Source: a virus. Taken from it: DNA of 49,304 nt. Position numbers and translations under genes: made by a program. Numbering within the stretch: position 1 is the first letter of the stretch; the number at the start of each line of letters is the position of its first letter. This document shows positions 3,147-41,486 of the stretch, in pieces. The DNA lies in IMG/VR virus record IMGVR_UViG_3300032215_000120, positions 1-49,304 of that record; one strand, 5' to 3'. A model generated the notes under the pieces. The model was given only the letters and a program-made list of their open reading frames with translations. It made no database searches and was not told the origin of the DNA.

Positions 3147-3310
3147 AAACATTCAAAATATTAGCGTCATCGATCAGCTATTACACGCTGGAGCTCGAGG
3201 CGGAAACCGAGCAAGAAGCTTTTTTACTGGCTAAGGAGGCCGACGGCAGCGACTTCGAGCGCGACGGCGAAGGTGATTGGGTTATTGTTAATGTAGAGGA
3301 GGCAGTATGA
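3143..3310 (+). CDS. Small DpnD/PcfM-like protein
   Basis: 55 residues with the pattern MKTFKI...YYTLELEAETEQEAFLLAKEAD...DWVIVNVEE: a beta strand, a second strand with alternating Glu, a helix and a final strand. This matches my memory of the small DpnD/PcfM family (role unknown, found in phages and conjugative elements). ATGA overlap with the next gene. Its 3' end is repeated about 650 bases downstream in the short ORF at 3883. Confidence 0.55.
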   Translation: MKTFKILASSISYYTLELEAETEQEAFLLAKEADGSDFERDGEGDWVIVNVEEAV

Positions 3311-3870
3311 GTAATTACCCAAAAGAATACGATTTAGATCAGTTAAGTAATCAATATTTGATTGAGGCATTTTCGGATGCGGAAAGCCCCGCAGAACTTT
3401 ATAGACAAGTTTACAAATACAGCTCATGCGGCGCATATCTTAGCGTCACTATTGAATACACCAAGGTTTCAGGCACTTGCTTTGATGACTACCATGAAGA
3501 AATAGAACAAAAAACTTTAGGCGGCGATGATTTATCTTTACTGGGCACATGGAAAGACATGGATGAGCGAGGTGAGCTGGTTGTGTCTTTTACTGTCGGA
3601 AGTATTGTTGAGGGCGTTGACTATGGCACAGACGATATTGAAGTTAAGGCTAATCAACTAGAGGAAGAGCCAAAAGAATTTCGCAATCGGTTTGATGCTG
3701 CCTTGAAAGAAGTAGAGCAAGAAGCGGAGTCTATTTGGAACGAGACACACGGATGCGAGTCTTGCCAAGCATATTGGACCGACCAAGGACTAGATATCGA
3801 TGATAGCGGCGGGATTGTTCCCGTGTATCAGTATTGCCCTGACTGCAAGGGTCAAGGCGCAAGTTTTTAA
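3307..3870 (+). CDS. Hypothetical protein with C-terminal zinc-ribbon-like Cys pairs
   Basis: 187 residues, acidic overall. The C-terminal 40 residues hold CESC and CPDCKGQG, a pair resembling one module of a DnaJ-type zinc finger (CxxCxGxG); the first pair lacks the usual glycines. It starts in an ATGA overlap with the preceding gene, with GAGGAGG upstream. Function unknown; a metal site is inferred. Confidence 0.6.
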   Translation: MSNYPKEYDLDQLSNQYLIEAFSDAESPAELYRQVYKYSSCGAYLSVTIEYTKVSGTCFDDYHEEIEQKTLGGDDLSLLGTWKDMDERGELVVSFTVGSIVEGVDYGTDDIEVKANQLEEEPKEFRNRFDAALKEVEQEAESIWNETHGCESCQAYWTDQGLDIDDSGGIVPVYQYCPDCKGQGASF

Positions 3871-3882
3871 AAAGGAAACACC

Positions 3883-3963
3883 ATGAAACAAGAAGAACGC
3901 AAAGCTTTTGCCGAGGCATACGCTAACCATTGGGTTATTGTTAATGTGGAGGTGGCAGCATGA
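3883..3963 (+). pseudogene. 26-codon chimeric gene remnant
   Basis: This short ORF keeps a good ribosome-binding site (AAAAGGAAACACC) and an ATGA overlap with the next gene. Its first 16 residues (MKQEERKAFAEAYANH) resemble the start of the protein at 4300 (MTNEEIKAFVNAYSNN). Its last 10 (WVIVNVEVAA) repeat the end of the protein at 3143 (WVIVNVEEAV). At DNA level a stretch of about 36 bases around 3277-3312 recurs at 3929-3964 with only a few changes. I infer a deletion-fusion product of once longer duplicated genes; it may still serve as a translated leader. Confidence 0.5.
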
Positions 3964-4145
3964 GCACGGAACAAAACACCCTCACCCACATACAAGAGAT
4001 TTATTTTGATGTATGCGACCAGCTGGACTACCAGTCCTACGAAGATATGGGCTACAAAAATAAACGCGAGATGCTGCAAGAGTTCAAGTGGAAACTCGAG
4101 CGCATAGAGGCAGACTTTAAACAACTAATGAAAGAAACAGCATGA
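3960..4145 (+). CDS. Small charged helical protein
   Basis: 61 residues, helical, with alternating acidic and basic residues and a Lys/Glu-rich C-terminal half. It begins in an ATGA overlap with the short chimeric ORF, with GGAGGTGGC upstream, and ends in an ATGA overlap with the next gene. No family recognised. Confidence 0.55.
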   Translation: MSTEQNTLTHIQEIYFDVCDQLDYQSYEDMGYKNKREMLQEFKWKLERIEADFKQLMKETA

Positions 4146-4303
4146 ACATCGATGACGCACTAAAGATTGTATGGGAGGCTTTGCACGGATTCCGTGAAGA
4201 CTGTATTCCAGAAGGCGATCTTCACTATGACGAACAATGGGACGATATTTGTACCGCGATGGCAGCATTACAGGAAACTTTAAACAAGGAGATAACACCA
4301 TGA
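4142..4303 (+). CDS. Small acidic hypothetical protein
   Basis: 53 residues, acidic, with DDALKIVWEALHGFRED and a further helix. Linked by ATGA overlaps on both sides, which supports expression. No recognised motif. Confidence 0.5.
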   Translation: MNIDDALKIVWEALHGFREDCIPEGDLHYDEQWDDICTAMAALQETLNKEITP

Positions 4304-8887: not shown

Positions 8888-9099
8888 GCGTCTTTGCTTC
8901 CTAGTTGTTTGGCTATTTCCTCAAGACGGCGAATGCGCTGGCGGTTGTATTCGACTACGCTAGTTGCGTACTCAAGGGATTTTTCACCTTGCATCTTTGC
9001 CAGCTGTGCATCACGCATCTCGATGTCAATGATTTCCAACATCGTTCTCGGGCGCAACATATCTCTAATGAATGCGATTAATGTTTCTCGTTTAGTCAT
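8884..9099 (-). CDS. Small helical hypothetical protein
   Basis: 71 residues from the ATG at 9099, chosen because AAGGAG lies 7 bases upstream; the longer open frame runs into the preceding gene without a ribosome-binding site. It is helical and charged (RMRDAQLAKMQGEK-like coiled pattern) and may oligomerise. Function unknown. Confidence 0.55.
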   Translation of the reverse strand: MTKRETLIAFIRDMLRPRTMLEIIDIEMRDAQLAKMQGEKSLEYATSVVEYNRQRIRRLEEIAKQLGSKDA

Positions 9100-9622
9100 G
9101 CTTTCTCCTTGTTTGTTTATATTTTTCCAGTGCTGCTGCACGCGCTTCTCTCCATCTTGCTTGCTCCTTTCGTAATTCAATTTCTTTCTCTGATGTTGTT
9201 TTGTATCTGCCAATCAACACTCCAAGTATGTCTACACGATTTGGGTGTCTTAAGGTACGCAAACCCTTGACTTCAATTTGTCTGATGCGTTCGCGTGTTA
9301 GATCAAGCGTCTTGCCAACCTCTTCCAATGTGTAGTCGCTATCAAGTCCAATACCAAACCTCATACGCAAAACTTTTATTGCTTTTGGGGTTAATGTTTC
9401 AAGCACATCAGCAACAACAGTAACCATTTCTTTCTTGAACAGTTCTTCTTCGGGGTCAACATATTCAAGATATTCAAACGGGGGGCATGGCAACTCTGGC
9501 ATACTTTCATCGCGTAAATAACCGTTGTAGTAATACGCTTGACGCAACTCATCACTTGCACCCACAAGAGTGCCGTACGGAATGGTTTGCCCTTTGTTTA
9601 TCTTGCCGTAGGGTCTAGGCAC
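9092..9622 (-). CDS. Sigma-70 region-4-only protein
   Basis: 176 residues from a GTG at 9622, chosen because AGGAG lies 8 bases upstream and it overlaps the preceding stop; an ATG 16 codons earlier has a poorly spaced site. Residues about 75-130 are a nearly canonical RpoD region 4: VLRMRFGIGLDSDYTLEEVG, then TRERIRQIE and LRTLRHPNR, the -35 recognition helix-turn-helix. Regions 1-3 are absent. The N-terminal 70 residues are unrelated to sigma and the C-terminus is a charged helix. It could redirect host polymerase or compete for -35 recognition. It cannot act as a full sigma factor by itself. Confidence 0.8.
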   Translation of the reverse strand: MPRPYGKINKGQTIPYGTLVGASDELRQAYYYNGYLRDESMPELPCPPFEYLEYVDPEEELFKKEMVTVVADVLETLTPKAIKVLRMRFGIGLDSDYTLEEVGKTLDLTRERIRQIEVKGLRTLRHPNRVDILGVLIGRYKTTSEKEIELRKEQARWREARAAALEKYKQTRRKHD

Positions 9623-9800
9623 TGTTCTTCTCCTGATCAATCGTGTGCTTTTGTTCCGTGATTTCTTCATCCTTCACCCACAATTTAATGAGCGTAAGGC
9701 CGCCTGCTTTGCTATCAATCATTACTGGACGGCCTCTCCATGTAGTTACAGGCTTGTCAAAGTAATTAAGAAACGCATCTTTTAATTCTTCTCTTTTCAT
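9615..9800 (-). CDS. Small hypothetical protein
   Basis: 61 residues. The ATG follows ATAAGGAGAAGAACAC, a strong ribosome-binding site shared in form with the genes around it. The middle is beta-rich (TTWRGRPVMIDSKAGGLTLI). It overlaps the sigma-like gene by 8 bases. Unknown function. Confidence 0.55.
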   Translation of the reverse strand: MKREELKDAFLNYFDKPVTTWRGRPVMIDSKAGGLTLIKLWVKDEEITEQKHTIDQEKNSA

Positions 9801-10639: not shown

Positions 10640-10782
10640 GGTTCGCTCCTTTCAATAGTTTCTCTGTGGCCACATGTGTCGCAGAACCAATACGACCAAT
10701 GCGGTTGTGTTGCTAACTCTCCGTTACAGACAGGACAAGTAGGTTGCTCGTCGTCGTCTATCTCGTCATCAGAATATACCAT
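10636..10782 (-). CDS. Small zinc-ribbon protein, first gene of the leftward operon
   Basis: 48 residues. A very acidic start (SDDEIDDDEQ) is followed by CPVCNGEL and, after an aromatic stretch, CDTCGH, a complete four-Cys zinc ribbon. The ATG has GAGGTG upstream. Zinc ribbons of this size often touch RNA polymerase or nucleic acid, but no specific family is recognised. It is the first gene after the long non-coding region. Confidence 0.6.
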   Translation of the reverse strand: MVYSDDEIDDDEQPTCPVCNGELATQPHWSYWFCDTCGHRETIERSEP

Positions 10783-10815: not shown

Positions 10816-10985
10816 GTGATATCACCAAGTCTGAACCCTCTTACCCGTTGACCCTCCCTCCCAGAGGAGGCGGGCCAAGGCTCTTTATCAGCGAGCATTG
10901 CCAAGTTTTTAAGTTGACTATCGGACTGCCAATCCGCCTCCCTTGCACTGTGAGTGCATCCATGGGGTATGTGTAACAAGTTACA
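10816..10985. promoter_or_regulatory. Cluster of palindromes upstream of the leftward early operon
   Basis: Three perfect palindromes stand within 170 bases: GTGATATCAC (10816-10825), TGCACT-GTG-AGTGCA (10944-10958) and TGTAAC-AA-GTTACA (10972-10985). A CCTCC-CAGA-GGAGG hairpin lies at 10857-10870. They are 34 to 203 bases upstream of the first gene of the minus-strand operon, a usual place for operators. A weak promoter-like pair (TTGGTG, 16 nt, TTAACT on the minus strand) overlaps the first palindrome. Binding proteins are unknown. Confidence 0.4.
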
Positions 10986-11115
10986 TCGCTGTTTATTCTT
11001 TTCGATTTCTCTACTCAGAGGTGCGGGTCACACCGAGGTTCCGTGTTTTCTTCCGCGCAGCCCATACAGGCTCTTACTAACGTGCGGAGTACGGTTGTAG
11101 TAGGTAGTACAGGCG

Positions 11116-11236
11116 TAAAAAAGCCGCTTACAACTGCGTCCGGTAGGAACTTTATCTAAAAGCACCACTCTGGCTCTTAGATAAAGCGGAACGCATGTGT
11201 AAACGGCTTTAACTTCTGTTACTTCCTACGGCAACG
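11116..11236 (-). ncRNA. Candidate structured small RNA with pseudoknot and intrinsic terminator
   Basis: A long hairpin is formed by four helices: 11120-11126 with 11204-11210 (7 bp), 11128-11132 with 11198-11202 (5 bp), 11135-11142 with 11187-11195 (8 bp with one bulged base), and 11150-11159 with 11177-11186 (10 bp). On the minus strand it ends in GGCTTTTTT, as in an intrinsic terminator. The 7-nt bulge at 11143-11149 is exactly complementary to the leader at 11223-11229, which suggests a pseudoknot or a switch. A promoter-like element lies just upstream. The expected RNA is about 120 nt. No known family was recognised; existence of the transcript is inferred. Confidence 0.6.
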
Positions 11237-11242
11237 GTTTGG

Positions 11243-11270
11243 ATTATACACAAATATTTGAAGTTGGCAA
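11243..11270 (-). promoter_or_regulatory. Promoter for the candidate small RNA
   Basis: On the minus strand TTGCCA (11265-11270), a 16-nt spacer and a perfect TATAAT (11243-11248). Transcription would start near 11236 and meet the hairpin and T run ending near 11116. It is the best sigma-70-like promoter seen in the non-coding region. Confidence 0.55.
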
Positions 11271-11276
11271 CACGTT

Positions 11277-11570
11277 CACATAAAGCAGTGTATTTAGACT
11301 TGCACAACACAAAAAAAGTGCTACGGCGCTAACCCGTATTACGTGCTACCAACACGGCTGGAGACTACTGACTCTCTATGCTATGTGCATAGCGTCAAAC
11401 ACAATCCCCATGCGTGTTAGTCGTTGGGATTCCACCAACGCCCTCTTCGCTTTAACGCCTGCGAGTCCAAGGCGGTTAGTAGCTCACATCAAGCAGTGTT
11501 TTTTTTAACTTCATAGAAAGGACCAAACAAACAACGGCGCTAACCCGCTGCACCACCAACGACTTAACTA
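11277..11570. repeat. Pair of diverged direct repeats
   Basis: Unit A (about 11277-11360) and unit B (about 11485-11566) share, in order, CACATMAAGCAGTGT (11277-11291 and 11485-11499), ACGGCGCTAACCCG (11323-11336 and 11534-11547) and ACCAAC (near 11349 and 11554). The spacing between the first two blocks is 46 and 49 bases. Conservation in blocks with variable sequence between looks like selected binding or RNA elements. Each middle block can form a small hairpin (TACGG with CCGTA in unit A). Confidence 0.5.
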
Positions 11571-16009: not shown

Positions 16010-16274
16010 TGCTGCCCGCCAACTACCCTGCCAACACTGTGGAACAAGTGACGGCACGGTGGTAGCGGCGCACTCCAACCAACTACGAGATGGCAAAGGC
16101 CGTGGCTTAAAGGCTCACGACTACCGTATTGCCTCGCTATGCTACAGGTGCCACTCTGACCTAGACCAAGGATCTAAGATGTCTAAACAGGAGAGGGTAG
16201 ATATGTGGGAAGAGGCCCACCGCAAAACGATAGGCCTCTTCTTTGAGAACAATATTATTGTTGTAGGCGTTTAA
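15984..16274 (+). CDS. DUF1364/HNH-like zinc protein
   Basis: 96 residues. It has CQHCGTSDGTVVAAHSNQ, a GLKAHDYRIASLCYRCHSDL segment and a helical end. This is the pattern of DUF1364, small lambdoid-phage proteins with a treble-clef/HNH-like fold (CxxC, H, CxxCH) near recombination genes. A nuclease or DNA-repair role is usual for the fold. It is the last gene of the rightward operon and overlaps the convergent polyvalent-protein gene by 20 bases. Confidence 0.65.
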   Translation: MYRNKKLTDAARQLPCQHCGTSDGTVVAAHSNQLRDGKGRGLKAHDYRIASLCYRCHSDLDQGSKMSKQERVDMWEEAHRKTIGLFFENNIIVVGV

Positions 16275-19200
16275 TCTGATCGTTCAAACCCTGCATGAGT
16301 CTGGTCTTCTGCTCATCAATTTTCTTGATGCGTTCTTCAGGAGCATCCTTCTCTTGCAGGAGTTTCTTCTGTTTATTTAGCTGGGTAATTTGGTTCTCAA
16401 GATAGTTAGCGCGGTTAATGAAGCGCACCTCTGGATGCTCGGCACGGTACTCGCGGGTATCTTCCTTGTTCTTCATGCGCTGCTTAATCTCATTCTCATG
16501 TTGAGCCAGCTCTGTTACGTTTGCATAGAACTTGGCAGAGATAGCGGCAGGCGTTGTTGTCTCGCCGTATAACTTACCTGCGATTGGCACTCTATACGAT
16601 GGCAACTCAGAAGTTTCACCCTTTGCCGCGGCACCTAAGTACTCGCCAGTCTTCATAACCTCACGGCCTACACCACCAGTGTATTGACCAATCAAGTAGT
16701 CAAGCTGGTCAGCAGTTGGGCTGATCTTGCCCTTTGTGTACGATGTCCCAGCAGGCGAAGAAACGTAGTTCAAAAACTCCGCGAGGTTCTTACTAAACCA
16801 GCTAGCACCTTCACGGCTACGCATGAAGCCTGGAGTTGGGGAGGTAGCGCGGTCTTCTTTGGAGATAGGTCTGCCAAACGCATCCTTGTTAGATTGGATG
16901 GCGGCCAATGGATCAAACGCTGTGGGCGACAGGATTTGTAACAAGCTACCAGAGCCTAATGGGTTGAACGAATCCAACACCAACGACGTTACATCCAGAA
17001 CTTTATCACCCAAACCCTTGGCACCAGTAATAGCGCCAGCTTGACCCAAGATGTACTCGGTAGTTAAGCGGCCGATACCAGGGAAGATGTTAAAGCCCAT
17101 AGGCATTGGGATAACAAGGTAGTCACCCCCGCCCATAGGCAAGATTAGGTTCTTGTCTTTGAGGAACTGTGGTGGCTCATCATCGTCAAAGCCCGCCATA
17201 GACAGGGCAATAGCCTGTATAACACCCAAGGTAAATCCGCCAGCCATGATCTTGCGACCAGCTGGTCCTTGCAAGGTTTCAGCCAAACGCTTTGTGCCTT
17301 GTACGGACGCATTAAAGAACGCATAGAGGGCTTGCAAAGTAGGAGATGCTGCACCCTTGCGGTTAAAGTTAACTGTCAGATTCTTAGCAAGGCTGGCGGC
17401 TTTGTCTTCGTTTAGACCTTGGTCTAGGGCAACCTTAAACGCAGACAGACGCACGGCATTTTCCATGGCGTCGTTGTAGTCTGATAGCCAGTTAAACACA
17501 GCATCAGCCGTCTTACGAACATTGCTTCTGTCTAGTTTTTCCAGCTCTCGAGCAACGATGCCGGCCTTGTCATTACCTCTACTGAATTGTTCCTTGTAGC
17601 CAGTAGTACCGCCTGCTTTTTGGAAGCGCTCAAACAACTCTTGCCATTCACCTTTTGGCTCTTTGCCAGCACGCTGAGCACGCAGGTCAGAATAAATACT
17701 TCTTAGGGCTGGGAAGACGCCCTTCAGTACTTCTTTCTCATGTCCAGCAATATCAGTGGTAGTCAGGTTGAGGGCAGCACCTTGGACGTCGCGTGCAAAG
17801 TTCCATGCACCGAACACTGGGTTGTACTGGGTATTGACAGACGCCATGAAGCGCGTGACTTCACCAATCGTTCCCATGGCTAGACCCATTTGCTCGGCAT
17901 CTAGGTTCTTCAGAGACTCCACCATGCGCTTGGCGCGAGGATCACTGCTGTTAAAGATGATGAAGCGATCTTCGCCATTGATACGGATTGGGAATACGTT
18001 GTCGCTGTTTCTCAGTAGAGGATTAACAACGTACTTCACCATGCCAGTCTTCTTATCGAAGGAGGCTGTAACAGGTTCTTTAGCAATGTTCTCTGCGTCG
18101 TCTGGGTTAAGGCCTAAGTCCTCAAGCTCAGCAGCTAACTTGTCTTTGTTCTTGATTGCATCAGGATTAATTGGCAACCAGAATTTAGTGTTTGGATTCT
18201 GAATAGCCAGCCCGTATAGCGCACGGCCAACTCGAGCCTTTTCAGACTTCATGATGGCCTGCTCGCGCTGGAGTGCAATGTTCTCAAATATGTCAACTAC
18301 GCTCTTCAAAGAACCCGTTGCACGCTTAGAGAATCCACCGCGGCTACCTAAGCCAGCACCAACACCGCCACCTTTAGTAACGTACTCCAACTCATCTCGC
18401 TTGAGCGGAACATAAAACGGGAATGCTTTGCGCCATGCTTGGATGGTTTCTTTCTTCTCAATACCGGTCTGCACCAGCATGTCCTGGGTGCCTCGAACGA
18501 TAGAGTCAATCTGTTTGGCTAGCTTCTCAAACACAGCCTTGCGGTCTGCGGGCAGATCTTCCAAATACTTCTTTGCAGCCTCTGTGGAAATGCCTGAGCC
18601 CTTGTTTTGGAGCTTGGGGTTTGGATTGATCTTGTTGATGTGTTCGTTGTACTCTTCGGCGTGGCGGTTGTGCAGGTACTGATCAAGGTCATCAATAGTG
18701 ACGTTAGCGTCCTTCATGTCCTTGGTGATTGGCAGCAGTTCTTTCTGCAAGAAGTCTTTGATGCCCTTGGCAGTGCGGCCGTGGTACAGCTCTTCCTTGA
18801 TATAGGCGTTGAACTTGTCAGAGATCTCGCCAACAGCTTTCTTGATGTTTTCAATGACGCGCTTGGTGTCAATCTGCTTATCAACAATCTTGTATTGGAA
18901 GTCATCAAGTTTGCTGTCTTGCAGGTTATCCCACTCAGCAGGCGCCATCTCGTCGCCCTTGAAGTTTCGATAGTCTGTGGGTGGTGCGCCTTCTACAGTT
19001 CCCTTGGCAAACAAGGGCAGCTGATCTTCTGCCACCAAAGTTGTTGTTGGAGTGAAGTCAACATTGCTTGTCACCGTATCTAAGTACTGGGCAAAGGTTT
19101 CGTTAGGCAAGAACTTAGCAGCCTTGGCTTGTGCAAAGAACTTCTTGATGGCAGCGCCTAGCTTGGCAAAGAACTTCTCGACTACGCTAACAGGCTTCTC

Positions 19201-22200
19201 GCTTGTCGTAGCCCAGCGGGATACTTGGTCTGCATACCACTCACTAAAGCTAAACCAGTATTGCTGGTTGGCCATCTTGTTTGCAGGAATGTTTAACTCT
19301 CCCTGCGTAGCGCGGCCTGTGCGCTTGGCGCGCATAGACTCAACCAACTCCTTGGCTGTACCGCCTCGAGCGGTCTTAAACCATGCATTGAACTCTTTGA
19401 TCAAAGCATTCTTAGTCTCAACGCTGGCGTTTTCGTAGGTTTGCTTTTGATGGATATGGCCAAACTCATGGGCAATAACTTCCAGCATCTTGCCGGCGCT
19501 TGTGCTCTTACGAACAATGACGATGTAGTCGTTAGGGCCAACCTTCTTAACTGTTCCAGGCTCATTTAAGAAACCCATGTAGCCAATTGCACGGTGTGGG
19601 CCGGTGAACTTATCCTTGTTGGCTAACGCTTCTTCAGCGGTCATGATGTGGATGTTGCCATCCAGCTTAAAGATCTTTGCCCAGTTTTTAGCAACAGCAG
19701 AGACTCTGCCGGATATACCAGTGGAACTTGTTACACCTGGCTCGATAGTCAGGAAAGGTTTCTTGGCGTGTTGCTCGGCAGCCTTGGCTTCAAACTCTTG
19801 CTTGACCTTAACCAGCTCACGATACTCGGAATCCTTCAGGCCAAATGACTTGGCTGGGAACTGCTCAATGTCATTTCGATACATCGTATCTTTGACGTAT
19901 GGAACATAGATTGGTTCACCAGTGCTAGCGCCATGCGCGCGAACCAAGCCAAGGTCACCATTGCTATAGACAATATCTCCGTTGTAATGTTTGGCTAAGT
20001 CTTCTATGTTTCCAATGGCGCCGGATATCTTGTTAATTTCTTCTGGCGCCCGCTCCATAACTTTAGTGCTTGGGCCGTTGTAATAAACCGGAAAATCAAA
20101 GCCAAACTTTTTATACAGGGCAACAAGCTCGTCAAAATTAAGTCCAGCTTGATTTGTTTTCTTGTCTCTCAAAGGCGTTGGCTCGGCGAATAAAACCAAA
20201 CCGTTTTTATCTGCAATATCTACCAAATCTTTTAATGCCCGGCTGGCTTTTCCTTGGCCGCGAGCTTCAGGATCAACCAAGATAACTTCAATAGTTAAAT
20301 CCTCATTATTGCCTCTCCCCAGCTGCACGCGATCCTTGTGTTCAAACAATACTTGCTGGGGGCTTAATGCCAAACGCACGCCATCTTTTTCAAATGTGCG
20401 ATGTTGGTTGCCGCCCTTGTCTGTGTAGGTACGCGGGTCGTTAAGGGCCAATACTTTATAGCCTGTATTAACAAGACCATACGCAGCTGGATAAGTTAAG
20501 GTATTGCCGTCAGGCGTATTTACTTCGTAGGACGGCTCTTCAGCCGGCTCTTTAGCTTTTGGTTTTTGTTTGGCAGGCTTCTCTTCTTCCGCAGCAAAGA
20601 TATCCTTCTGGCCGCGGGCAGCAGCCTCATCAGCAGGGCGGTTGCTACCAGTCAACACAAACTCACCACGCTCAGCGTCAGCCTTAGCTTTAGCCTCTGC
20701 CTCCTTCTCTAAGCGTGCGTTCTCTTTTTCTAAGCGGTCTATCTCTGCTTGCTTAGTTTTTAACTCTTCTGTTGTTTGCTGCTTGAGTTCAAGCTCCGCA
20801 GGTGCCTTGCTTTCCGCAGGGACTGGAGCCTTTTCTGTGGGGACAGCCTCACCAGTTTTTGCAGTAGTTCTTCTCTCTTCATCTTGTATCTCCTGTTCGC
20901 TGAAGCCTAAAGCCTCCATTGCCGCACGCGCAGACATTGTGCTGGCGGGCGTATCCATTAGCTCGTTGATGGCATCATCAAGGGCTTTGAAATCTTCGTT
21001 GTTAGTAGCGGCAAGCTCTTGAGACATTTGATCCATGTACTCTTGCTCAGACATGCCATACCACTCAGCATCAGTCTGGCCAGCGCGCTCTTCGTAGTCT
21101 TCTCCCTCTTGGGCTGCGCGCTCTGCATACTTGGCGGCCATGTCTTCTTGGGCTTGCTCAGAATAAACTGGCTCAACTTTCTTACCAGAGATGGCTAGCT
21201 CAATTAAATTAACCAGATCAGATTCAGTTGCGTCTTGTGGCAGGTACCCGTCTTGAATGGCGTATACGACTAGATCATCAGGCAACATGCCGGACTTTTT
21301 AAAGATGGGTCCATAGCCGCTAACTAAAATTTGTTTGCCAGCATTGAACTCAATCATTTGGCTCTTAGGTTTACCCTTCTCATGGTAAAGACCTTTGCTC
21401 GCCAAGAAAGTACGGAATGGATTCTTGTTGTATGCCGCTATGCGTAAAGGGCTGGCTTTTTCTAGGGCCGTCTTTGGTTTGGCTTTTTCAACATTTGGTT
21501 TCTTTGAAAGTTCTTCTAGTTCTTTATTTGCTACAGCAATGTTTTTCTTATAACTGTTAGTGCTATTTTTTGTGTTCTCTGTAAAAGTTTCAAACTGAGA
21601 GTCATTTAAATATCCAATAGAGTGTTGGTACTGAGCTTCATTTAAAGCCACTTCATCATAAGCAATGTTAAGTTCGTTATGTTTAATTGAAGCCTCATAA
21701 AGCTTTCTTAAGTTTTCGTCAGTTTTATTTTTTTGATAGTTTGCATGTATTTTGTTGTATTCTTCAACTGCTTTGTCAAATTTTTTGTAAGCCTCTGTAG
21801 TGGCTTTATTAAGCTTGGTTCTGGTGGCAGCATTAGTGACTGGAGCAACGGGCGCAACCCCTGGCTCAACGCCTAGAAACTTGTATGTATTTGCAACATC
21901 CGCCTTTGATTCTTCTATAGCCTTGGCTAACTTTTCTGGATTGGCAAGCTTTTTGTTATTGCCAACGCGCTCGCTTTCCATAAGAAGACGAGATCCGCCA
22001 CCAGTAAGTGTGCTGAATTGATCAAACAAAGGACGCACATCTGCTGGAACTTGGTGCTTGACAGCATTAGCAGAGTAACCCTTGGCGTTAATAGCGTCCG
22101 TAACTTTTTGGATGGCCTGATTTAGTTCTCCAATAACTTGCTTGACTTCAGGCTGGCCGTATTTCTTAAGCTCATCTAGACGCTTCTTGTCTTCTTTGTA

Positions 22201-23757
22201 ATTAGCAAAGAATGTGTCTAAGGATTTGGTTTCTTTGTAGTCGCCTTTAGGAGCTACTGCTGGCGTAAAGTTTTGATTTGGCTTTACAAATTGCGCGGCT
22301 TTTGCTTTGATAAGATCGTATTGCCTCTGCAAATCATCGTACTGCGCTTGTGTAATCTGCCCGTCTGACAGCATACGTGTCGCATTAAACATGGACACAT
22401 TCGCGCGGCGCAGACGCTCTTGCGGATCAAGTTCTTCTTTAGGAGCCTCTGCAGCCGTTACTTCAGGTGGAACATGTTCCACTTCTGGCGTTTTGGCTGG
22501 GGCAATTGGGGCAACCTCTGGGGCAACTGGGGCATTGCCCTCTATCGTGGCAAGCTGATCTTCCAGCTCTCTTAGCATTGCTTCGCGGTCTTGCGCTGGA
22601 GCGTTGACGTCTTCAACTGGAACAGTGGCTGGTGTTAATAAGGTTGGTTGGACGGCTGGCGCTTCCTCAACTGGCTTGGCTACAGGAGCCTGGGCTGTTT
22701 GTGCAGTTTGTGCAATTTGTTCAGCCACTTGTTTGTCAAGTTCTTCTTGGCGTTTTTGCTGCATCCTGCCGGTTAAATGTCCAGCGCCACCACCGCCAAC
22801 ACCCATGGCAAAGCCAGTAACGGCACCCATACCAGCGGCTTCAGCAACGCCCTGCATGAGTGGTTTATCTGTGGCGTAGTTTGCCCACATTTGTTCTTGA
22901 GCTGATTGAGGCATCTCCTCAAACACGCCTTCCGAGATACCAGAACCAATAGCGCGCTTGGCAAAGTCACCAACAGATTTAGATGCACCCTTAGATGCTC
23001 CGCCCGCTAACAAAGTGTCAATGTCATCAAATCCAAGTTTGTTGGCCAGCCGACCACCAGCCACACCAAATGCAGCCGTACCAACACCACTACCTAAAGC
23101 GGCCAAAGATTGGGCTGCCGTCAGTAGCTTGTCTTTAGTTTCGCCGCGGGTTTGCTCAGCAGCAGAGCCGGCACCCAAGATACCTTCGCCAAGACCACCA
23201 GCTACCGCAGCTCCTACGCTAGGCGCCGCTTTTAATATGCCTCGAGCTATGCCAGCTCCGCCAATCATTTGAGGCAAGGACTCACCTACGCCAGTAAGGA
23301 TGGTGCTGGGGTTTTGTAAAGCAGTCGCAATTGTGGGACCAAACCCTTGGGCTTCTTGTACCTTGCGATTGGCGGCTTGCTGTGCTTCAGATAGATATGT
23401 GTCTAGGATTTGCTTAGCTTCGCGTGGACGGAATCCCGCCTCTTCAAGGACTTTACCAACCGCTCCACCAGTTGGTATATCTGCTAAACCAACAAACGAC
23501 TCAGGCAGGCCAATAGCCCCCTTGAGTAAGGTAATGCCAGCATCTAAAGCAGCATCAGATATAGAACGGCTTGGAGATTCTTGATTACGCTTCTCTAGTG
23601 CCGCCCTATATTGATTGGCATCCATGACATTGGGCGCATTTGCAGAAGATGGACTTGGTTGTGATGCTGAGTACGATGCATAAGACCATGCGGTTTTAGG
23701 ATCTGGCGCGTCAACCTCATAGGTTTTACCCCCAAAATCAACTTCGTATGTAGGCAT
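16255..23757 (-). CDS. 2500-residue polyvalent virion protein (LPD38-type)
   Basis: A giant protein, probably injected or internal to the virion. Residues 1-330 contain Gly/Ala-rich hydrophobic segments that may act on membranes. Low-complexity Ala/Pro/Glu linkers follow. Near 764-857 lies an NPFRTFLASKG-type module. A GNAT-like domain is at about 1070-1215 (VDPEARGQGKASRAL near 1160). A zinc-metallopeptidase motif IAHEFGH stands near 1430. The C-terminal part (about 1600-2290) matches the large polyvalent-protein domain LPD38 (RKAFPFYVPL, NFARDVQGAA) and ends in a coiled coil. Polyvalent proteins carry several enzymes into the host at infection. Domain limits are estimates. Confidence 0.75.
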   Translation of the reverse strand: MPTYEVDFGGKTYEVDAPDPKTAWSYASYSASQPSPSSANAPNVMDANQYRAALEKRNQESPSRSISDAALDAGITLLKGAIGLPESFVGLADIPTGGAVGKVLEEAGFRPREAKQILDTYLSEAQQAANRKVQEAQGFGPTIATALQNPSTILTGVGESLPQMIGGAGIARGILKAAPSVGAAVAGGLGEGILGAGSAAEQTRGETKDKLLTAAQSLAALGSGVGTAAFGVAGGRLANKLGFDDIDTLLAGGASKGASKSVGDFAKRAIGSGISEGVFEEMPQSAQEQMWANYATDKPLMQGVAEAAGMGAVTGFAMGVGGGGAGHLTGRMQQKRQEELDKQVAEQIAQTAQTAQAPVAKPVEEAPAVQPTLLTPATVPVEDVNAPAQDREAMLRELEDQLATIEGNAPVAPEVAPIAPAKTPEVEHVPPEVTAAEAPKEELDPQERLRRANVSMFNATRMLSDGQITQAQYDDLQRQYDLIKAKAAQFVKPNQNFTPAVAPKGDYKETKSLDTFFANYKEDKKRLDELKKYGQPEVKQVIGELNQAIQKVTDAINAKGYSANAVKHQVPADVRPLFDQFSTLTGGGSRLLMESERVGNNKKLANPEKLAKAIEESKADVANTYKFLGVEPGVAPVAPVTNAATRTKLNKATTEAYKKFDKAVEEYNKIHANYQKNKTDENLRKLYEASIKHNELNIAYDEVALNEAQYQHSIGYLNDSQFETFTENTKNSTNSYKKNIAVANKELEELSKKPNVEKAKPKTALEKASPLRIAAYNKNPFRTFLASKGLYHEKGKPKSQMIEFNAGKQILVSGYGPIFKKSGMLPDDLVVYAIQDGYLPQDATESDLVNLIELAISGKKVEPVYSEQAQEDMAAKYAERAAQEGEDYEERAGQTDAEWYGMSEQEYMDQMSQELAATNNEDFKALDDAINELMDTPASTMSARAAMEALGFSEQEIQDEERRTTAKTGEAVPTEKAPVPAESKAPAELELKQQTTEELKTKQAEIDRLEKENARLEKEAEAKAKADAERGEFVLTGSNRPADEAAARGQKDIFAAEEEKPAKQKPKAKEPAEEPSYEVNTPDGNTLTYPAAYGLVNTGYKVLALNDPRTYTDKGGNQHRTFEKDGVRLALSPQQVLFEHKDRVQLGRGNNEDLTIEVILVDPEARGQGKASRALKDLVDIADKNGLVLFAEPTPLRDKKTNQAGLNFDELVALYKKFGFDFPVYYNGPSTKVMERAPEEINKISGAIGNIEDLAKHYNGDIVYSNGDLGLVRAHGASTGEPIYVPYVKDTMYRNDIEQFPAKSFGLKDSEYRELVKVKQEFEAKAAEQHAKKPFLTIEPGVTSSTGISGRVSAVAKNWAKIFKLDGNIHIMTAEEALANKDKFTGPHRAIGYMGFLNEPGTVKKVGPNDYIVIVRKSTSAGKMLEVIAHEFGHIHQKQTYENASVETKNALIKEFNAWFKTARGGTAKELVESMRAKRTGRATQGELNIPANKMANQQYWFSFSEWYADQVSRWATTSEKPVSVVEKFFAKLGAAIKKFFAQAKAAKFLPNETFAQYLDTVTSNVDFTPTTTLVAEDQLPLFAKGTVEGAPPTDYRNFKGDEMAPAEWDNLQDSKLDDFQYKIVDKQIDTKRVIENIKKAVGEISDKFNAYIKEELYHGRTAKGIKDFLQKELLPITKDMKDANVTIDDLDQYLHNRHAEEYNEHINKINPNPKLQNKGSGISTEAAKKYLEDLPADRKAVFEKLAKQIDSIVRGTQDMLVQTGIEKKETIQAWRKAFPFYVPLKRDELEYVTKGGGVGAGLGSRGGFSKRATGSLKSVVDIFENIALQREQAIMKSEKARVGRALYGLAIQNPNTKFWLPINPDAIKNKDKLAAELEDLGLNPDDAENIAKEPVTASFDKKTGMVKYVVNPLLRNSDNVFPIRINGEDRFIIFNSSDPRAKRMVESLKNLDAEQMGLAMGTIGEVTRFMASVNTQYNPVFGAWNFARDVQGAALNLTTTDIAGHEKEVLKGVFPALRSIYSDLRAQRAGKEPKGEWQELFERFQKAGGTTGYKEQFSRGNDKAGIVARELEKLDRSNVRKTADAVFNWLSDYNDAMENAVRLSAFKVALDQGLNEDKAASLAKNLTVNFNRKGAASPTLQALYAFFNASVQGTKRLAETLQGPAGRKIMAGGFTLGVIQAIALSMAGFDDDEPPQFLKDKNLILPMGGGDYLVIPMPMGFNIFPGIGRLTTEYILGQAGAITGAKGLGDKVLDVTSLVLDSFNPLGSGSLLQILSPTAFDPLAAIQSNKDAFGRPISKEDRATSPTPGFMRSREGASWFSKNLAEFLNYVSSPAGTSYTKGKISPTADQLDYLIGQYTGGVGREVMKTGEYLGAAAKGETSELPSYRVPIAGKLYGETTTPAAISAKFYANVTELAQHENEIKQRMKNKEDTREYRAEHPEVRFINRANYLENQITQLNKQKKLLQEKDAPEERIKKIDEQKTRLMQGLNDQIKRLQQ

Positions 23758-36231: not shown

Positions 36232-37401
36232 TTATGTTCGTGCAATACCAATGGCAGAAACATACTGGCCAGAAACGCTCAACCACGTAGTTAAAGAGCC
36301 TACTTGCTTAGGAGAAGAGTAGCTAGTAGTGTTTCCTAGACCAAGCCTTCCATTTGCGTTGTTACCCCAAACCCACAGTGTTCCGTCAGTTTTAAGTGCG
36401 TAACAAGATCCATATCCGTGTTGTACGGTTGACCAATTTGTTAATGCACCAATTTGAACAGGGCTAGATATAACGCTACTTGCAGAATTATTTCCAACCA
36501 CTCCTTCTACGCCGTTATATCCCCATCCCCATAAAGTTCCATTTGCTTTTATTGAGTGTGCTGTTTGTAAACCAGCGCATGTAATATTTATCCAATTTGT
36601 TAAAGCGCCAATTTGAACTGGAGATGAATAATTTGTTGTATTTCCTGTGGCAAGATTGCCGTATCCGTTATAGCCCCAACCCCAGAGTGTACCGTCTGTT
36701 TTAACTGCAAAAGTCTGACTTCCGCCCGTGGCAACATATGACCAAGTGGTTAAAGCTCCAACTTGTACGGGGGATGAAATGTAGTTACCACTGCTACCAA
36801 TTCCAATATTACCCCAATAGTTTGGCCCCCATCCCCATAAAGTACCATCTGTTTTTGTGGCCATCGTAGCGTATGAATCGCAAACAACTGTAGACCAATT
36901 AGTTAATGACCCAACTTGTACAGGGGAAGAATAACTTATTGCGTTGCCAAGTCCTAATTGGACATAGGTATTATCTCCCCACGCCCATAATGTACCGTCA
37001 GTTTTTATGGCAATGGTAAAACTAGTGCCAGCAGAAACTTTTGACCAGTTAGTTAATGCGCCAACTTGCTTTGGGCTAGAGTATTTAGTTCTATTACCAA
37101 GACCAAGTTGCCCCATACTATTTCCGCCCCAAGACCACATCGTTCCATCTGTTTTTATAACCATTGAACTTGATCCGCCAACACTATTGCTAACATAGCT
37201 CCATGTTGTTAAAGACCCAATTTGTTTGGGTGAGGAATAATCAGTAATATTACCAAGACCAAGTTGTCCAACATTATTAAACCCCCACGCATACAAATGC
37301 GGCGCTGGCTGGCTCGGCCAAGTCCCCAACGCCTGTGCATTGGCTACACTGCTAAGACTCCATGAGCCTGAGTATTGAACGCCTGAATATATGATTGGCA
37401 T
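36232..37401 (-). CDS. RCC1-type seven-bladed beta-propeller protein, type A, copy 1
   Basis: 389 residues. Seven repeats of about 50 residues, each with TLWxWGxN, a GNLGLGN-like turn, SSPVQVGxLTNW and a variable strand, as in RCC1 propellers. A short header of about 35 residues (MPIIYSGVQYSGSW...GTWP) precedes blade 1; the same header type begins the protein at 41486. It lies one base after the type B copy 1 gene. A receptor-binding or virion-surface role is inferred from location and phage context. Confidence 0.75.
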   Translation of the reverse strand: MPIIYSGVQYSGSWSLSSVANAQALGTWPSQPAPHLYAWGFNNVGQLGLGNITDYSSPKQIGSLTTWSYVSNSVGGSSSMVIKTDGTMWSWGGNSMGQLGLGNRTKYSSPKQVGALTNWSKVSAGTSFTIAIKTDGTLWAWGDNTYVQLGLGNAISYSSPVQVGSLTNWSTVVCDSYATMATKTDGTLWGWGPNYWGNIGIGSSGNYISSPVQVGALTTWSYVATGGSQTFAVKTDGTLWGWGYNGYGNLATGNTTNYSSPVQIGALTNWINITCAGLQTAHSIKANGTLWGWGYNGVEGVVGNNSASSVISSPVQIGALTNWSTVQHGYGSCYALKTDGTLWVWGNNANGRLGLGNTTSYSSPKQVGSLTTWLSVSGQYVSAIGIART

Positions 37402-37402
37402 A

Positions 37403-38542
37403 TTAGTATTCGAGAGCTATTGTAAAAGTACCATTTGAAGAAATTTTTGACCAAGTGGTTAGTGAACCCACTTGAACAGGCGATGAATATTTTGTTCTAT
37501 TACCAAGGCCTAATTGTCCAAAACTATTTGCCCCCCATCCCCACAAAGTACCATCTGTTTTAATTGACATAGAGCTAGAAGAATAAGTGCCAATTGAAAT
37601 AGTAGCCCAATCAGTTGATGCGCCTATTTGTTTTGGTGATGAGTAATAAGTTACGTTTCCTAAACCCAATTGACCATCAATATTTCTACCCCAAGACCAT
37701 AGTGTGCCGTTGGTCTTTATAGCCAATGTTTGTCCGTATCCTCCAGCAACTTTTAGCCAAGTAGTAAGTGCTCCTATTTGTTTTGGGGAGGAGTAAAGGG
37801 TAGTGTTATTAAGTCCTAATTGACCTGCATAACTTCTACCCCAAGACCACATAGTGCCGTCAGTTTTGGTAGCTAGCGTAAAGTTATATGCGCCTGAAAC
37901 AGTTAACCAATTAGTCAAAGCACCAACTTGTTGTGGGGAAGAGATATTAGTGCTAGTAGGTGTGCCTAACCCTAAACCCCCATTATTTCCAAATCCCCAC
38001 GACCAAAGAGTACCATCAGTTTTAATGGCTAATACATGGTTATTTCCGCAACTAATTTTAGACCAAGCGGTCAATGATCCGACTTGCTTTGGGGATGAGT
38101 AATAAGTTGTATTGCCAAGACCAAGTTGTCCGTAATTATTTAATCCCCAAGACCATAGCGTACCGTCCGTTTTAACTGCAATTGTGTGGGATGCCCCACT
38201 AGAAACAGCACTCCAATTTGTTAATGAACCAACTTGCTTTGGAGATGAATAATAATTTATATTGCCAAGACCAAGTTGCCCTACGCTATTTACTCCCCAT
38301 GTCCATAAAGTACCGTCTGTTTTGATGGAGCTAGTGTAATATTGACCGCTTGCAATTGTTAACCAAGTAGTCAAAGAGCCAACTTGCTTAGGCGAAGAAT
38401 AGTTGGTTCTATTTCCTAGTCCGAGTTGGCCATTATTGTTATTTCCCCAGCCATATAAATAATACGTATAACCAACAATCGTAGGTGTAGCCAACGGGTT
38501 GTAACCCGGCTTATTGATGGCCGCTACGTAGCGATTGCTCAC
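37403..38542 (-). CDS. RCC1-type seven-bladed beta-propeller protein, type B, copy 1
   Basis: 379 residues from a GTG at 38542, chosen because AAGGA lies 7 bases upstream and it overlaps the preceding stop as GTGA; a longer upstream reading is not supported. Seven RCC1 repeats follow a header with INKPGYNPLA, shared in form with the protein at 42638 (IIKPGFNPLA). The fourth blade has a small insertion (LGTPTSTNISSP). Probably displayed on the virion or used against the host; no enzymatic motif is seen. Confidence 0.75.
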   Translation of the reverse strand: MSNRYVAAINKPGYNPLATPTIVGYTYYLYGWGNNNNGQLGLGNRTNYSSPKQVGSLTTWLTIASGQYYTSSIKTDGTLWTWGVNSVGQLGLGNINYYSSPKQVGSLTNWSAVSSGASHTIAVKTDGTLWSWGLNNYGQLGLGNTTYYSSPKQVGSLTAWSKISCGNNHVLAIKTDGTLWSWGFGNNGGLGLGTPTSTNISSPQQVGALTNWLTVSGAYNFTLATKTDGTMWSWGRSYAGQLGLNNTTLYSSPKQIGALTTWLKVAGGYGQTLAIKTNGTLWSWGRNIDGQLGLGNVTYYSSPKQIGASTDWATISIGTYSSSSMSIKTDGTLWGWGANSFGQLGLGNRTKYSSPVQVGSLTTWSKISSNGTFTIALEY

Positions 38543-40311
38543 GAAACCATCCTTAGTTCTACTTTGTTCATGTTCAATCTTTCTTTGATCTTGTTGAACG
38601 GAGCATCCCACTCACCAAACACTTCTTGACGGAACAGCTTCATGGTGTCGTAGTACGGGCACTTATCACCATCTAAGGCATACAGGTAGTACCCCATCAC
38701 AGGGATAACCACCCAAGTCTCTACACCCATAGCCGCCGCCAAGTGGCTCACAGACGTACATGAACTGATCACCAGATCACAGGATGCAACAGCGTTTTTA
38801 GTCTCGTCCCACGTTCCTAATGGTACTTGTTTTACCCATGTAGGGCAAGCATCTGCACCCTCATCGCGCTGTAAAGATATGAACTCATAGTCCGTGCCTC
38901 GCACTGCATCAAACAGCAATTGATAGGGGAAGCGTTTATTGTGGTCGTCCTCGAATTTACTGTTGCCTTGCCAACGCAGACCAATGCGTTTCTTGTAACC
39001 TTTGATGACTGATGGCTTGTCAATGTATGCGTCGCCACGTAAGTCTGCCATCTCGTAACCGAGGTAGTACGGAGCCACCATAGCAAAGCACCAGAAGTCG
39101 TGGTAGACACCGTATTCCGCCCCGTGTTGGACGACAGCAGATACGCCTTCAATCTTATTGAACAAACCCACCAAAGCGCCTGAACAGCACACTACTACCT
39201 TGTTACCCCTCGCAACTAAGTCACGGGCGTAACGCACTTGGTGGATTTGATCGCCAAGGCCGTGATCGCAGTACAACAGGATCGTGCCTTTTGTCTTGCC
39301 GTCCCACTCTGGGGCTGGGGTGTCTGGGAACTTCTCACCAATAATTCCACAAAAACGCCCTCTGTTCATTTCTTTGTAGCCTTCGCCAATCTTGCCCTGT
39401 TTGAGCAAGTACCAACTGCGGTTGTACGCGGCTCGGTGGTCATTGGGACGCTCGGCATTGAGCTTCTCTGAGAGTCTCCACCCTTCGGTAAAGTCACCCA
39501 TCTTGCCTGCCGCGACTTGGAGGTCTAAGTCATCTAACTCAGGCATCGTGCGTGCATTGTCATTCCAGAACTCTGGTTGGCAGAATTGGTTGTAGTGGTG
39601 CTTCAATAAGTCTTTGGACTTGTCATTGTGCTGTTTAGCCAAGACAGGCTTGACATCGTGCATACCAGCGTAGCCGTGTAGGTTCTCGTCGTCTTCTTTG
39701 ACTGATGTGCCGTCGATGTTGGAGAAGTCATATGCGTATGGCTCCAAACCCAAGAACGCATGGATACGGTCTAGTTGACCCTTTGGATCAGCAAGAAGCT
39801 CGTCATACACAACGAACAGGAAGTTGTCTGGCATGGCTTTGTAGCCCGCTTCCAACGACAGATATGCCGCCTTCAGATGGTCAGCCAATTGTCCTGAGTA
39901 CATGAATTTATCTAAGTCATCAGGCTTTGCCACGCGCACAAAAGAAGCCATGCAATCAGGCACGGGGCGCACAGTAGCGATTACTTTACACGGACGATTC
40001 AGTACTTGGTTCATCGCACCCATGATCTGGGGGATAGGCCATCCACGGGACTTGTCAATGATGACAGGCTTGTCTGTGTCTTCGTAGAAAGCATCAATAC
40101 AGCCACGCATTGTCTGCGCTAACTTGTGCCGTTCTGGGTCGTTCTCGTTTAGTAGACCAGCGGAATGCCAAGTGTTCGCCAATCCGTCGAGAGCATGGAC
40201 TAAGCCAGATGTCGTAGAGACATGGGTTGCGGGGTTCTGGTTCAGGATAGCAGCAAGGACGGTTGAGCCTGAACGGGGAATGCCAGAGAGGAAGTGTAGT
40301 GTTTTGTTCAT
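38539..40311 (-). CDS. Sulfotransferase-glycosyltransferase fusion
   Basis: 590 residues. Residues 1-250 are a sulfotransferase: LSGIPRSGSTVLA (5'-phosphosulfate loop, 10-17) and the 3'-phosphate site around VRPVPDCMAS (114-123). A TPR-like helical linker follows (about 270-320). Residues 340-580 resemble TPR-linked glycosyltransferases of the GT9/heptosyltransferase fold: YCDHGLGDQIHQVRYARDL (347-365), IGLRWQGNSKF, DLVISSCTSVSHLAAAMG. It may add sulfate and sugar to a carbohydrate on the host or virion. It is flanked by the two RCC1 cassettes. Confidence 0.75.
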   Translation of the reverse strand: MNKTLHFLSGIPRSGSTVLAAILNQNPATHVSTTSGLVHALDGLANTWHSAGLLNENDPERHKLAQTMRGCIDAFYEDTDKPVIIDKSRGWPIPQIMGAMNQVLNRPCKVIATVRPVPDCMASFVRVAKPDDLDKFMYSGQLADHLKAAYLSLEAGYKAMPDNFLFVVYDELLADPKGQLDRIHAFLGLEPYAYDFSNIDGTSVKEDDENLHGYAGMHDVKPVLAKQHNDKSKDLLKHHYNQFCQPEFWNDNARTMPELDDLDLQVAAGKMGDFTEGWRLSEKLNAERPNDHRAAYNRSWYLLKQGKIGEGYKEMNRGRFCGIIGEKFPDTPAPEWDGKTKGTILLYCDHGLGDQIHQVRYARDLVARGNKVVVCCSGALVGLFNKIEGVSAVVQHGAEYGVYHDFWCFAMVAPYYLGYEMADLRGDAYIDKPSVIKGYKKRIGLRWQGNSKFEDDHNKRFPYQLLFDAVRGTDYEFISLQRDEGADACPTWVKQVPLGTWDETKNAVASCDLVISSCTSVSHLAAAMGVETWVVIPVMGYYLYALDGDKCPYYDTMKLFRQEVFGEWDAPFNKIKERLNMNKVELRMVS

Positions 40312-40325
40312 GGGTTTAGTTTATA

Positions 40326-41486
40326 TCAGGTAGAGGCAATTGCTATTGTGTTGTTATACCCACAGGCTACTTTTAACCATGAAGTTAATGAACCAACTTG
40401 TTTAGGGGAGGAGTACGGAGTCAGGTTATTAAGCCCAAGTTGCCCTTTCTCATTTCTTCCCCATACCCACAACGTACCATCAGTTTTTACTGAAGTTGCA
40501 GTATAAAACCCACCAGATACTGATAACCAATTAGTTAACAAACCAACTTGCATTGGTGATGAATAAGAAGTTGTGTTTCCTAATCCTAGTGTTCCGTAAT
40601 TATTTCCTTTACCCCATGACCATAAAGTTCCACCTTTAATAGCCATAAGCGCTCTTGCAAAACCCGTAACATTTGTCCAAGTAGTTAATGCACCAATTTG
40701 TTTTGGAGACGAATAGTATGTTGTGTTTCCAAGACCTAATTGACCTTGAGTGTTATAGCCCCATGACCAAATAGTCCCATCAGTTTTTAATGCAACAACA
40801 GATACAGCACTTGATGCCGAAGAAACATTTGCCCAAACAGTTAATGCACCAATTTGTTTTGGAGATGAATAATTAGTTGTATTGCCTAAACCAAGTTGAC
40901 CTACATTGTTATATCCCCAAGACCATAAAGTACCATCAGTTTTTAGGGCTAAAGTAGAGTAACCATTAGGAAAAACATTTGACCAAGAAGTCAATGAACC
41001 AACTTGTTTTGGTGAGGAATAGAGGGTTGTGTTTCCTAAACCTAATTCACCAGTACCATTATTTCCCCATGACCACAAAGTCCCATTAGTTTTAATGGCA
41101 AACGTGCTATATCCATTGTTAGATACGATAGACCAATTTGTTAAAGACCCCACCTGTTTGGGGCTAGAGTAATAAACACCAGAAGTTCCAAGCCCTAATT
41201 GCCCGTAATAACTATTACCCCACGCCCACAATGACCCATCGGTTTTAACCACAAAAGAACTGTAAACACCAGCCGCAACATTTAACCAAGTAGTTAAAGA
41301 ACCAACTTGCTTTGGTGAAGAATAATTGGTAATGTTTCCAAGACCAAGACCTCCAGCATAATTATTTCCCCATGTAAACAAATGCGGAGCAGGCGGGCTA
41401 GGCCAAGTCCCTGCCGAAATAGCAGAGTTAACCTGTTGCATTGTCCAGATGCCTGAGTATTGGGTTCCGTCGTATGTTATTGGCAT
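40326..41486 (-). CDS. RCC1-type seven-bladed beta-propeller protein, type A, copy 2
   Basis: 386 residues. The header (MPITYDGTQYSGIW...GTWP) is the close match of that of the protein at 37401. Seven blades follow, with GQLGLGNTTYYSSPKQIG-type cores; blade 6 has a short insertion (GKGNNYGT). The stop lies 14 bases before the sulfotransferase gene. See the gene at 37401 for the inferred role. Confidence 0.75.
   Translation of the reverse strand: MPITYDGTQYSGIWTMQQVNSAISAGTWPSPPAPHLFTWGNNYAGGLGLGNITNYSSPKQVGSLTTWLNVAAGVYSSFVVKTDGSLWAWGNSYYGQLGLGTSGVYYSSPKQVGSLTNWSIVSNNGYSTFAIKTNGTLWSWGNNGTGELGLGNTTLYSSPKQVGSLTSWSNVFPNGYSTLALKTDGTLWSWGYNNVGQLGLGNTTNYSSPKQIGALTVWANVSSASSAVSVVALKTDGTIWSWGYNTQGQLGLGNTTYYSSPKQIGALTTWTNVTGFARALMAIKGGTLWSWGKGNNYGTLGLGNTTSYSSPMQVGLLTNWLSVSGGFYTATSVKTDGTLWVWGRNEKGQLGLNNLTPYSSPKQVGSLTSWLKVACGYNNTIAIAST

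Follow-up and report, generated by a model that had tools for sequence, protein, structure and literature searches.

The window, by which we mean the whole stretch of DNA analysed here, comprises 49.3 kb and comes from IMG/VR as a virus record. Its minus strand contains a 121-nt segment, S, that has the appearance of a structured RNA module, and conserved non-coding elements flank S on both sides. Direct DNA searches of INPHARED with the S region (distant mode) and with the structural genes (near mode) yielded nothing related. Elsewhere on the minus strand, the late genes include four that encode RCC1-repeat proteins (36232-37401, 37403-38611, 40326-41486 and 41493-42638), whose fold is unusual for phage structural proteins. 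The product of 9092-9670 (minus), 192 aa long, has a sigma-70 region 4 domain and is possibly a phage sigma factor, and a 2500-aa protein (16255-23757, minus) matches only PHROG families of unknown function. The features at the S locus, in the direction of the minus strand, are as follows.

11475-11560 and 11263-11353, minus: two copies of module M, a structured repeat upstream of S.
11265-11270, minus: -35 hexamer TTGCCA, which overlaps the M copy lying upstream, in its 3' strand.
11243-11248, minus: -10 hexamer TATAAT, a few nt 5' of the modelled RNA start.
11117-11237, minus: RNA module S, 121 nt, with P1, a linker, the P2-P3-P4 hairpin and the U-tract (127 bits, fold, covariation).
11218-11235, minus: P1 hairpin, GUUGC...GUAAC, 5 bp with an 8-nt loop; 98.9% of cells pair, with two-sided change in 3 of 5 pairs.
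11223-11229, minus: P1 loop GUAGGAA, which supplies the 5' strand of pseudoknot PK-a and also contributes to the alternative helix P0.
11198-11210, minus: 5' strand of P2, the terminator stem; 98.1% of cells pair, with two-sided change in 10 of 12 pairs.
11187-11195, minus: 5' strand of P3; 99.3% of cells pair, with two-sided change in 8 of 8 pairs.
11150-11186, minus: P4 apical hairpin, variable in length and replaced by two hairpins in some relatives.
11143-11149, minus: 3' strand of PK-a, UUCCUAC, bulged out where P4 gives way to P3; 90% of cells pair, with two-sided change in 4 of 7 pairs.
11135-11142, minus: 3' strand of P3, from the alignment.
11120-11132, minus: 3' strand of P2, continuing into the U-tract, from the alignment.
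11117-11122, minus: U-tract, an intrinsic-terminator-like end (T1); T4-T7 or longer follows the stem in all homologues.
11094-11109, minus: P0' strand, just past the terminator and complementary to the transcript 5' end (GUUG..GUAGG.AGUA); window duplex -13.7.
10836-11093, minus: region B, conserved, RNA-like and non-coding; its extent is approximate, the core being the closed domain 10836-11037.

An earlier note on this DNA had placed the promoter, a hairpin between 11120 and 11210 and its end GGCTTTTTT here, and all of those coordinates are correct. The promoter, TTGCCA-N16-TATAAT (11270-11243, minus), agrees with the consensus at 11 of 12 positions and is the best match in 13 kb. With spacers of 16-19 nt permitted and the T at the last -10 position optional, 35 of 40 distinct homologues have a sigma-70-like promoter scoring at least 9/12 directly upstream of S, compared with 4.8% of shuffles; a stricter, earlier scan had recognized 15 of the 40. 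In many of the homologues the -35 hexamer is TTGACA and the spacer is 18 or 19 nt long.

A search of IMG/VR with the exact hairpin pattern gave no matches, because the sequence letters change too quickly. Pattern and BLAST searches with the RNA itself were useless across the collection, so loci were fetched through relatives of the flanking resolvase and exonuclease, and blastn across these loci recovered homologues with promoter and U-tract. A covariance model built from six homologues (R1), whose E-values are rough, finds S in about 45 distinct related phage loci at E < 0.01. In most of the exonuclease loci S lies upstream of that gene and is read from the opposite strand, and where detected it occupies a single site in each phage record, with the extra matches corresponding to the same site on the other strand. 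A circular phage genome deposited as MW202545, from Manatee Spring, carries it too (33 bits with E 1.7e-7, within 9.9 kb). S was not found in 301 genomes of the family of Xenophilus, where the lone weak match is a G+C-rich false positive.

P1 forms the extreme 5' end of S and carries a 7-nt leader segment in its loop, and the long hairpin that follows consists of P2, a short mismatch, P3 and P4. The 131 nt from 11110 to 11240 (minus) have a predicted folding energy of -50.2 kcal/mol; dinucleotide shuffles average -30.0 +/- 3.5, and none of 200 folds as stably (z -5.8). In a model-fitted alignment of 35 sequences (A4), 96.2% of 1415 cells are paired and 36 of 46 pairs are changed on both sides, counts that are biased towards the nested helices to which the alignment was fitted, the pseudoknot having had no part in the fitting. 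These are the compensatory changes in related phages that had been predicted from the window alone. None of 500 shuffles matches A4 on any of five measures, and sliding the partner strand by 1-3 columns lowers the pairing from 96% to 35-47%. A first alignment of 12 sequences (A1), in which P4 is misaligned, is excluded from the counts. At the level of sequence the fold, the promoter and the U-tract are thus confirmed as far above chance expectation.

The window has no match above the gathering threshold to any of 4227 Rfam models, and the hits at E<=5 are at chance level with none overlapping S; S is therefore outside every Rfam family tested. The claim that a structured RNA unit with its own promoter and a terminator-like end lies here, and matches no RNA family, holds up in this respect. 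A plausible ORF is absent from S, and with its predicted promoter and terminator it has the makings of an intrinsically terminated small RNA.

The adjoining genes for a resolvase, an exonuclease, a helicase and a primase, together with the further inverted-repeat modules beside S, would suit a role for the inverted repeats as DNA, acting as a cruciform, replication origin or recombination site with the resemblance to RNA being incidental. However, G-U cells outnumber A-C cells by 132 to 13 on the minus strand of the S alignment, indicating that the functional molecule is a minus-strand RNA rather than a DNA structure, and R1 scores the sense strand at 127 bits and the antisense strand at 31. 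The one-sided U-tract and promoter and the co-varying pseudoknot are likewise signatures of RNA, and the GC skew carries no origin signal beyond what gene orientation accounts for. We regard a DNA role as scarcely credible, and the suggestion that S is part of the replication origin finds no support.

The bulge sequence TTCCTAC (11143-11149 in plus-strand numbering) is exactly complementary over 7 bp to the leader sequence GTAGGAA (11223-11229), as had been pointed out. Because the leader segment is the loop of the 5-bp hairpin P1, the contact amounts to a pseudoknot between a hairpin loop and a bulge, which we refer to as PK-a. A match of at least 7 bp is present in 38 of 41 distinct homologues at an almost constant position, compared with 11% of shuffled leaders, and the helix has 90% of its A4 cells paired in spite of a few rows that are off register. 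More than 14 distinct sequences fill these positions among the homologues, including GUAGGAA/UUCCUAC, GUCGGAG/CUCCGAC, GUUGCGA/UCGCAAC, GUCGUGU/ACACGAC and GUGGAAA/UUUCCAC. CsrA-like, anti-Shine-Dalgarno-like and 16S-like sites were separately considered for the P1 loop and rejected, the loop sequence being variable.

The variability of the loop also bears on the proposal that S is a decoy for a host protein, whether RNA polymerase (in the manner of 6S RNA), a translation factor or a defence system. S would be a compact phage RNA, and its promoter and fold suggest that it might be abundant and stable. However, no single-stranded binding sequence is conserved, and even the loop varies freely while its pairing is kept. 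There is no Rfam match to 6S RNA, and the bulge of S is only 7 nt long and base-paired to the P1 loop, leaving no large open central bubble that could mimic a promoter. A decoy would also leave P0 and B unexplained. We therefore consider this role highly improbable, and the polymerase- or ribosome-directed decoy raised in the earlier note gains no support.

The leader has a second potential partner, the P0' strand, located between the U-tract and B, with which it pairs in the register GUUG-x-loop against loop'-x-CAAC or AGCC. An RNAduplex scan over 150 nt was too noisy to be useful, and a scan confined to the strand immediately before the next domain gave the clear signal. Across 37 distinct loci the duplex between a leader and its own site averages -15.3 kcal/mol, compared with -10.2 +/- 0.48 when leaders are exchanged among loci, each locus contributing a single site; not one of 5000 permutations attains the value observed, a count that is not an independent probability since the homologues share descent. 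The Betaproteobacteria-1 set described below has a weaker signal (31 of 5000 permutations). P0 is near-perfect in MW202545 and weak or absent in L028, L262, L263, L283 and L297, and L086 and L087 have an identical P0' though their loops differ at one base. In several relatives, for example L011, L118, L124, L126, L132 and L138, a single-sequence fold extended by the first bases past T1 already favours pairing of the leader with the post-terminator strand.

P0 occupies both the 5' strand and the loop of P1 and so excludes P1 and PK-a alike. The bulge and leader had been said to form a pseudoknot or an alternative structure; both are seen, and the alternative partner lies past the terminator. 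Since P0 is made only after T1, it cannot influence termination by the same polymerase, and S is thus not a classical antiterminator. We found no RNA antiterminator that would open P2, and T1 looks strong.

Past T1, all of the 41 loci have a non-coding interval of 326-726 nt (median 475), measured up to the first ORF with a plausible ribosome site, and outside it the phage genes are densely packed. B in the window has 334 nt free of ORFs with a plausible ribosome site; its core spans CUCGGUGUGACCCGCACC to GGGAGGGUCAACGGGUAAGAGGG (10836-11037, minus). An alignment of 18 B regions of the window type has 44 predicted pairs, 17 of them changed on both sides, and the window's own B folds as a single sequence no better than its shuffles (z -0.59). 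B is conserved across the S loci as several types. A coding interpretation of the block past T1, which in one frame reads RTPxVSKxLY, was rejected because there is no start codon, the frames break between types and the helices co-vary.

In L014, L016, L024, L028 and MW202545, B corresponds to the Rfam family RF02932, Betaproteobacteria-1, beginning 11-30 nt past T1. The first four score 100-103 bits with the family's covariance model, which has no match in the window. We found no mention of Betaproteobacteria-1 RNA in open-access papers. A pattern derived from it retrieved 71 viral stretches and six from bacterial assemblies, and in many of the viral loci either S or another module with promoter and U-tract can be seen by eye at the same position. 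In Variovorax and Xenophilus, Betaproteobacteria-1 directly follows a gene and S is missing.

Several further observations concern these neighbouring elements. The (pro)phage loci L162, L163, L165, L257, L279, L284 and L300 have Betaproteobacteria-1 shortly past the stop codon of a gene, which in these loci is often toprim- or primase-like, with the promoter/terminator module absent. The other 5' modules, read by eye and apparently non-homologous to S, are S2 (L236, L240, L241 and L294), S3 (L247, L248, L254, L255, L266, L272, L280, L292 and L305) and S4 (L258 and L259); each opens with a hairpin whose loop or stem is, also by eye, complementary to later strands. Module M has an outer stem of 8-13 bp, varying in sequence yet complementary, around a hairpin with a constant GGGUUAGCGCC and a constant CACUGCUUnAUGUG hairpin. 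It occurs in 40 distinct contexts among the window and the loci, and has no Rfam match in the window. Many relatives (L094-, L109- and L113-type) carry one copy of it, placed after S and before B, and in L117, L119 and L120 the copies are in tandem.

RF02932 is thus the immediate 3' neighbour of S in at least five phage records, with S lying outside the Rfam model. S also precedes types of B other than Betaproteobacteria-1, and Betaproteobacteria-1 occurs in Comamonadaceae prophages that do not have S. As judged from this arrangement, Betaproteobacteria-1 and an adjoining S are probably parts of one RNA. In the S-less loci B starts straight after the gene, and P0' therefore appears to belong to the S module, which implies that selection acts either on transcripts extending beyond the terminator or on a contact in trans between S and such RNA.

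The latter possibility would make S a stand-alone trans-acting small RNA that ends at 11117, with the P1 loop binding P0' at the start of B, or other RNAs, and feeding back on B. S has its own promoter and a strong terminator, the P1 loop is a classic seed-like element that co-varies with a strand past T1, and pairing of P0 in cis and in trans look the same in sequence. However, in many loci B or P0' begins within 11-30 nt of T1, leaving no room for a promoter of B; transcripts of B must then pass through S and carry their own copy of the leader. The P1 loop is, moreover, already fully engaged by PK-a. We consider such a small RNA unlikely. The proposal of a self-contained small RNA of about 120 nt is not supported, given the conserved non-coding region that always follows S and the co-variation of the leader with a strand past the U-tract, and for the suggested antisense regulator no target was found elsewhere.

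S could instead be a cis-acting attenuator of the leftward early operon that runs from the gene at 10782 to the helicase and primase genes, in which case some factor of the phage or the host would relieve termination at T1 and B would be no more than the long leader of the mRNA. The downstream genes are on the same strand, the terminator comes right after the promoter, and no clear second terminator is evident in the window between B and the gene at 10782. Against this, several Betaproteobacteria-1 RNAs end with a second terminator-like sequence ahead of the next gene, as is seen after B in L014-, L016- and L306-type relatives, and L128, L114, L121 and L132 have a promoter-like sequence for the next gene after B. 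The downstream genes also vary among the phages while S-B is constant, and an antiterminator pairing with P2 was not found. An operon attenuator seems to us quite improbable.

The reading that we favour, with moderate confidence, is that S forms the 5' part of a longer non-coding RNA of the phage, S-B, as a bistable module with a terminator inside it. A sigma-70-type promoter would start transcription at about 11237, and the nascent leader would form P1, the loop of which would dock into the 3' bulge of the long hairpin to form PK-a. P4, PK-a and P3-P2 could then stack into a quasi-continuous rod whose end is the intrinsic terminator T1. A fraction of the transcripts would end there, giving a compact S RNA of 121 nt, and the others, T1 being either leaky or relieved by a factor, would read through into B to give an RNA of about 400-500 nt. 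In the longer RNA P0' would compete for the leader, and a P0 helix of 12-15 bp would displace P1 and PK-a and close S as a separate 5' domain ahead of B. S would thus act as both an attenuator and a folding switch heading the long RNA. Sequence comparison itself shows the promoter, the fold of S, PK-a, the U-tract, the complementarity of P0 and the constant non-coding region B; what we infer is that transcripts are made, that some of them terminate at T1, that folding takes this order and that the switch exists.

A broader proposal, which we regard as possible but less than probable, is that S-B represents a new superfamily of large, modular non-coding RNAs of phages, in which interchangeable 5' switch modules with terminators (S and at least the three types S2-S4) are combined with equally interchangeable 3' bodies, Betaproteobacteria-1 being one fragment of these. 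Such an RNA may serve as a machine or scaffold during infection, and the exchange between the pseudoknot and P0 may set the balance of short and long forms. The data suggest that the orphan family Betaproteobacteria-1 is a mere part of a longer RNA, often with its own promoter and switch module; if it is indeed a fragment of such a modular phage RNA, this would be the broader novelty. To the large phage RNAs the analysis adds a widespread candidate whose pseudoknot has unusually good support and whose leader has a second, competing partner past an intrinsic terminator, and the identity of the long RNA, the choice between its two forms and its role in infection become testable.

Among known systems, attenuators and riboswitch-type leaders share with S a promoter, an alternative pairing of the leader and an intrinsic terminator near the start of the transcript. 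S differs in that a non-coding RNA follows instead of a gene and in that the alternative partner lies past the terminator; the mutually exclusive terminator and antiterminator of an attenuator were not found, as P0 competes with P1 and PK-a and not with P2. The packaging RNA of phi29 is about 120 nt long, has its own promoter and has a loop complementary to an internal loop, but that pairing is intermolecular and the RNA belongs to the packaging motor. S resembles it in size and in loop complementarity; no link to packaging was found for S, and an intramolecular fit is sufficient, the sequence being equally compatible with pairing within and between molecules.

To our knowledge the functions of the large structured phage RNAs GOLLD and ROOL are unexplained. 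These are long phage or prophage RNAs with pseudoknots, often found near tRNA islands, and GOLLD has a variable 5' region (PMC12286853). Among the S loci, tRNA genes adjoin S in two of the 39 sources scanned, with three beside S in L261 and others in L306, and there are none in the window. L306, which is MW202545, has at 3171-4215 an arrangement of six tRNA genes directly before S-Betaproteobacteria-1, and the record annotates hypothetical proteins over the RNA. The Rfam models for GOLLD and ROOL give no match, and S-B differs from both in being shorter and modular and in having an intrinsic terminator within its 5' part. Finally, rRNA precursors have a folded domain that is closed by long-range pairing of the leader with a strand further downstream, the trailer (PMC10250234). 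P0 would be a comparable closing helix, but one that closes the 5' module alone, competes with a pseudoknot and spans a terminator.
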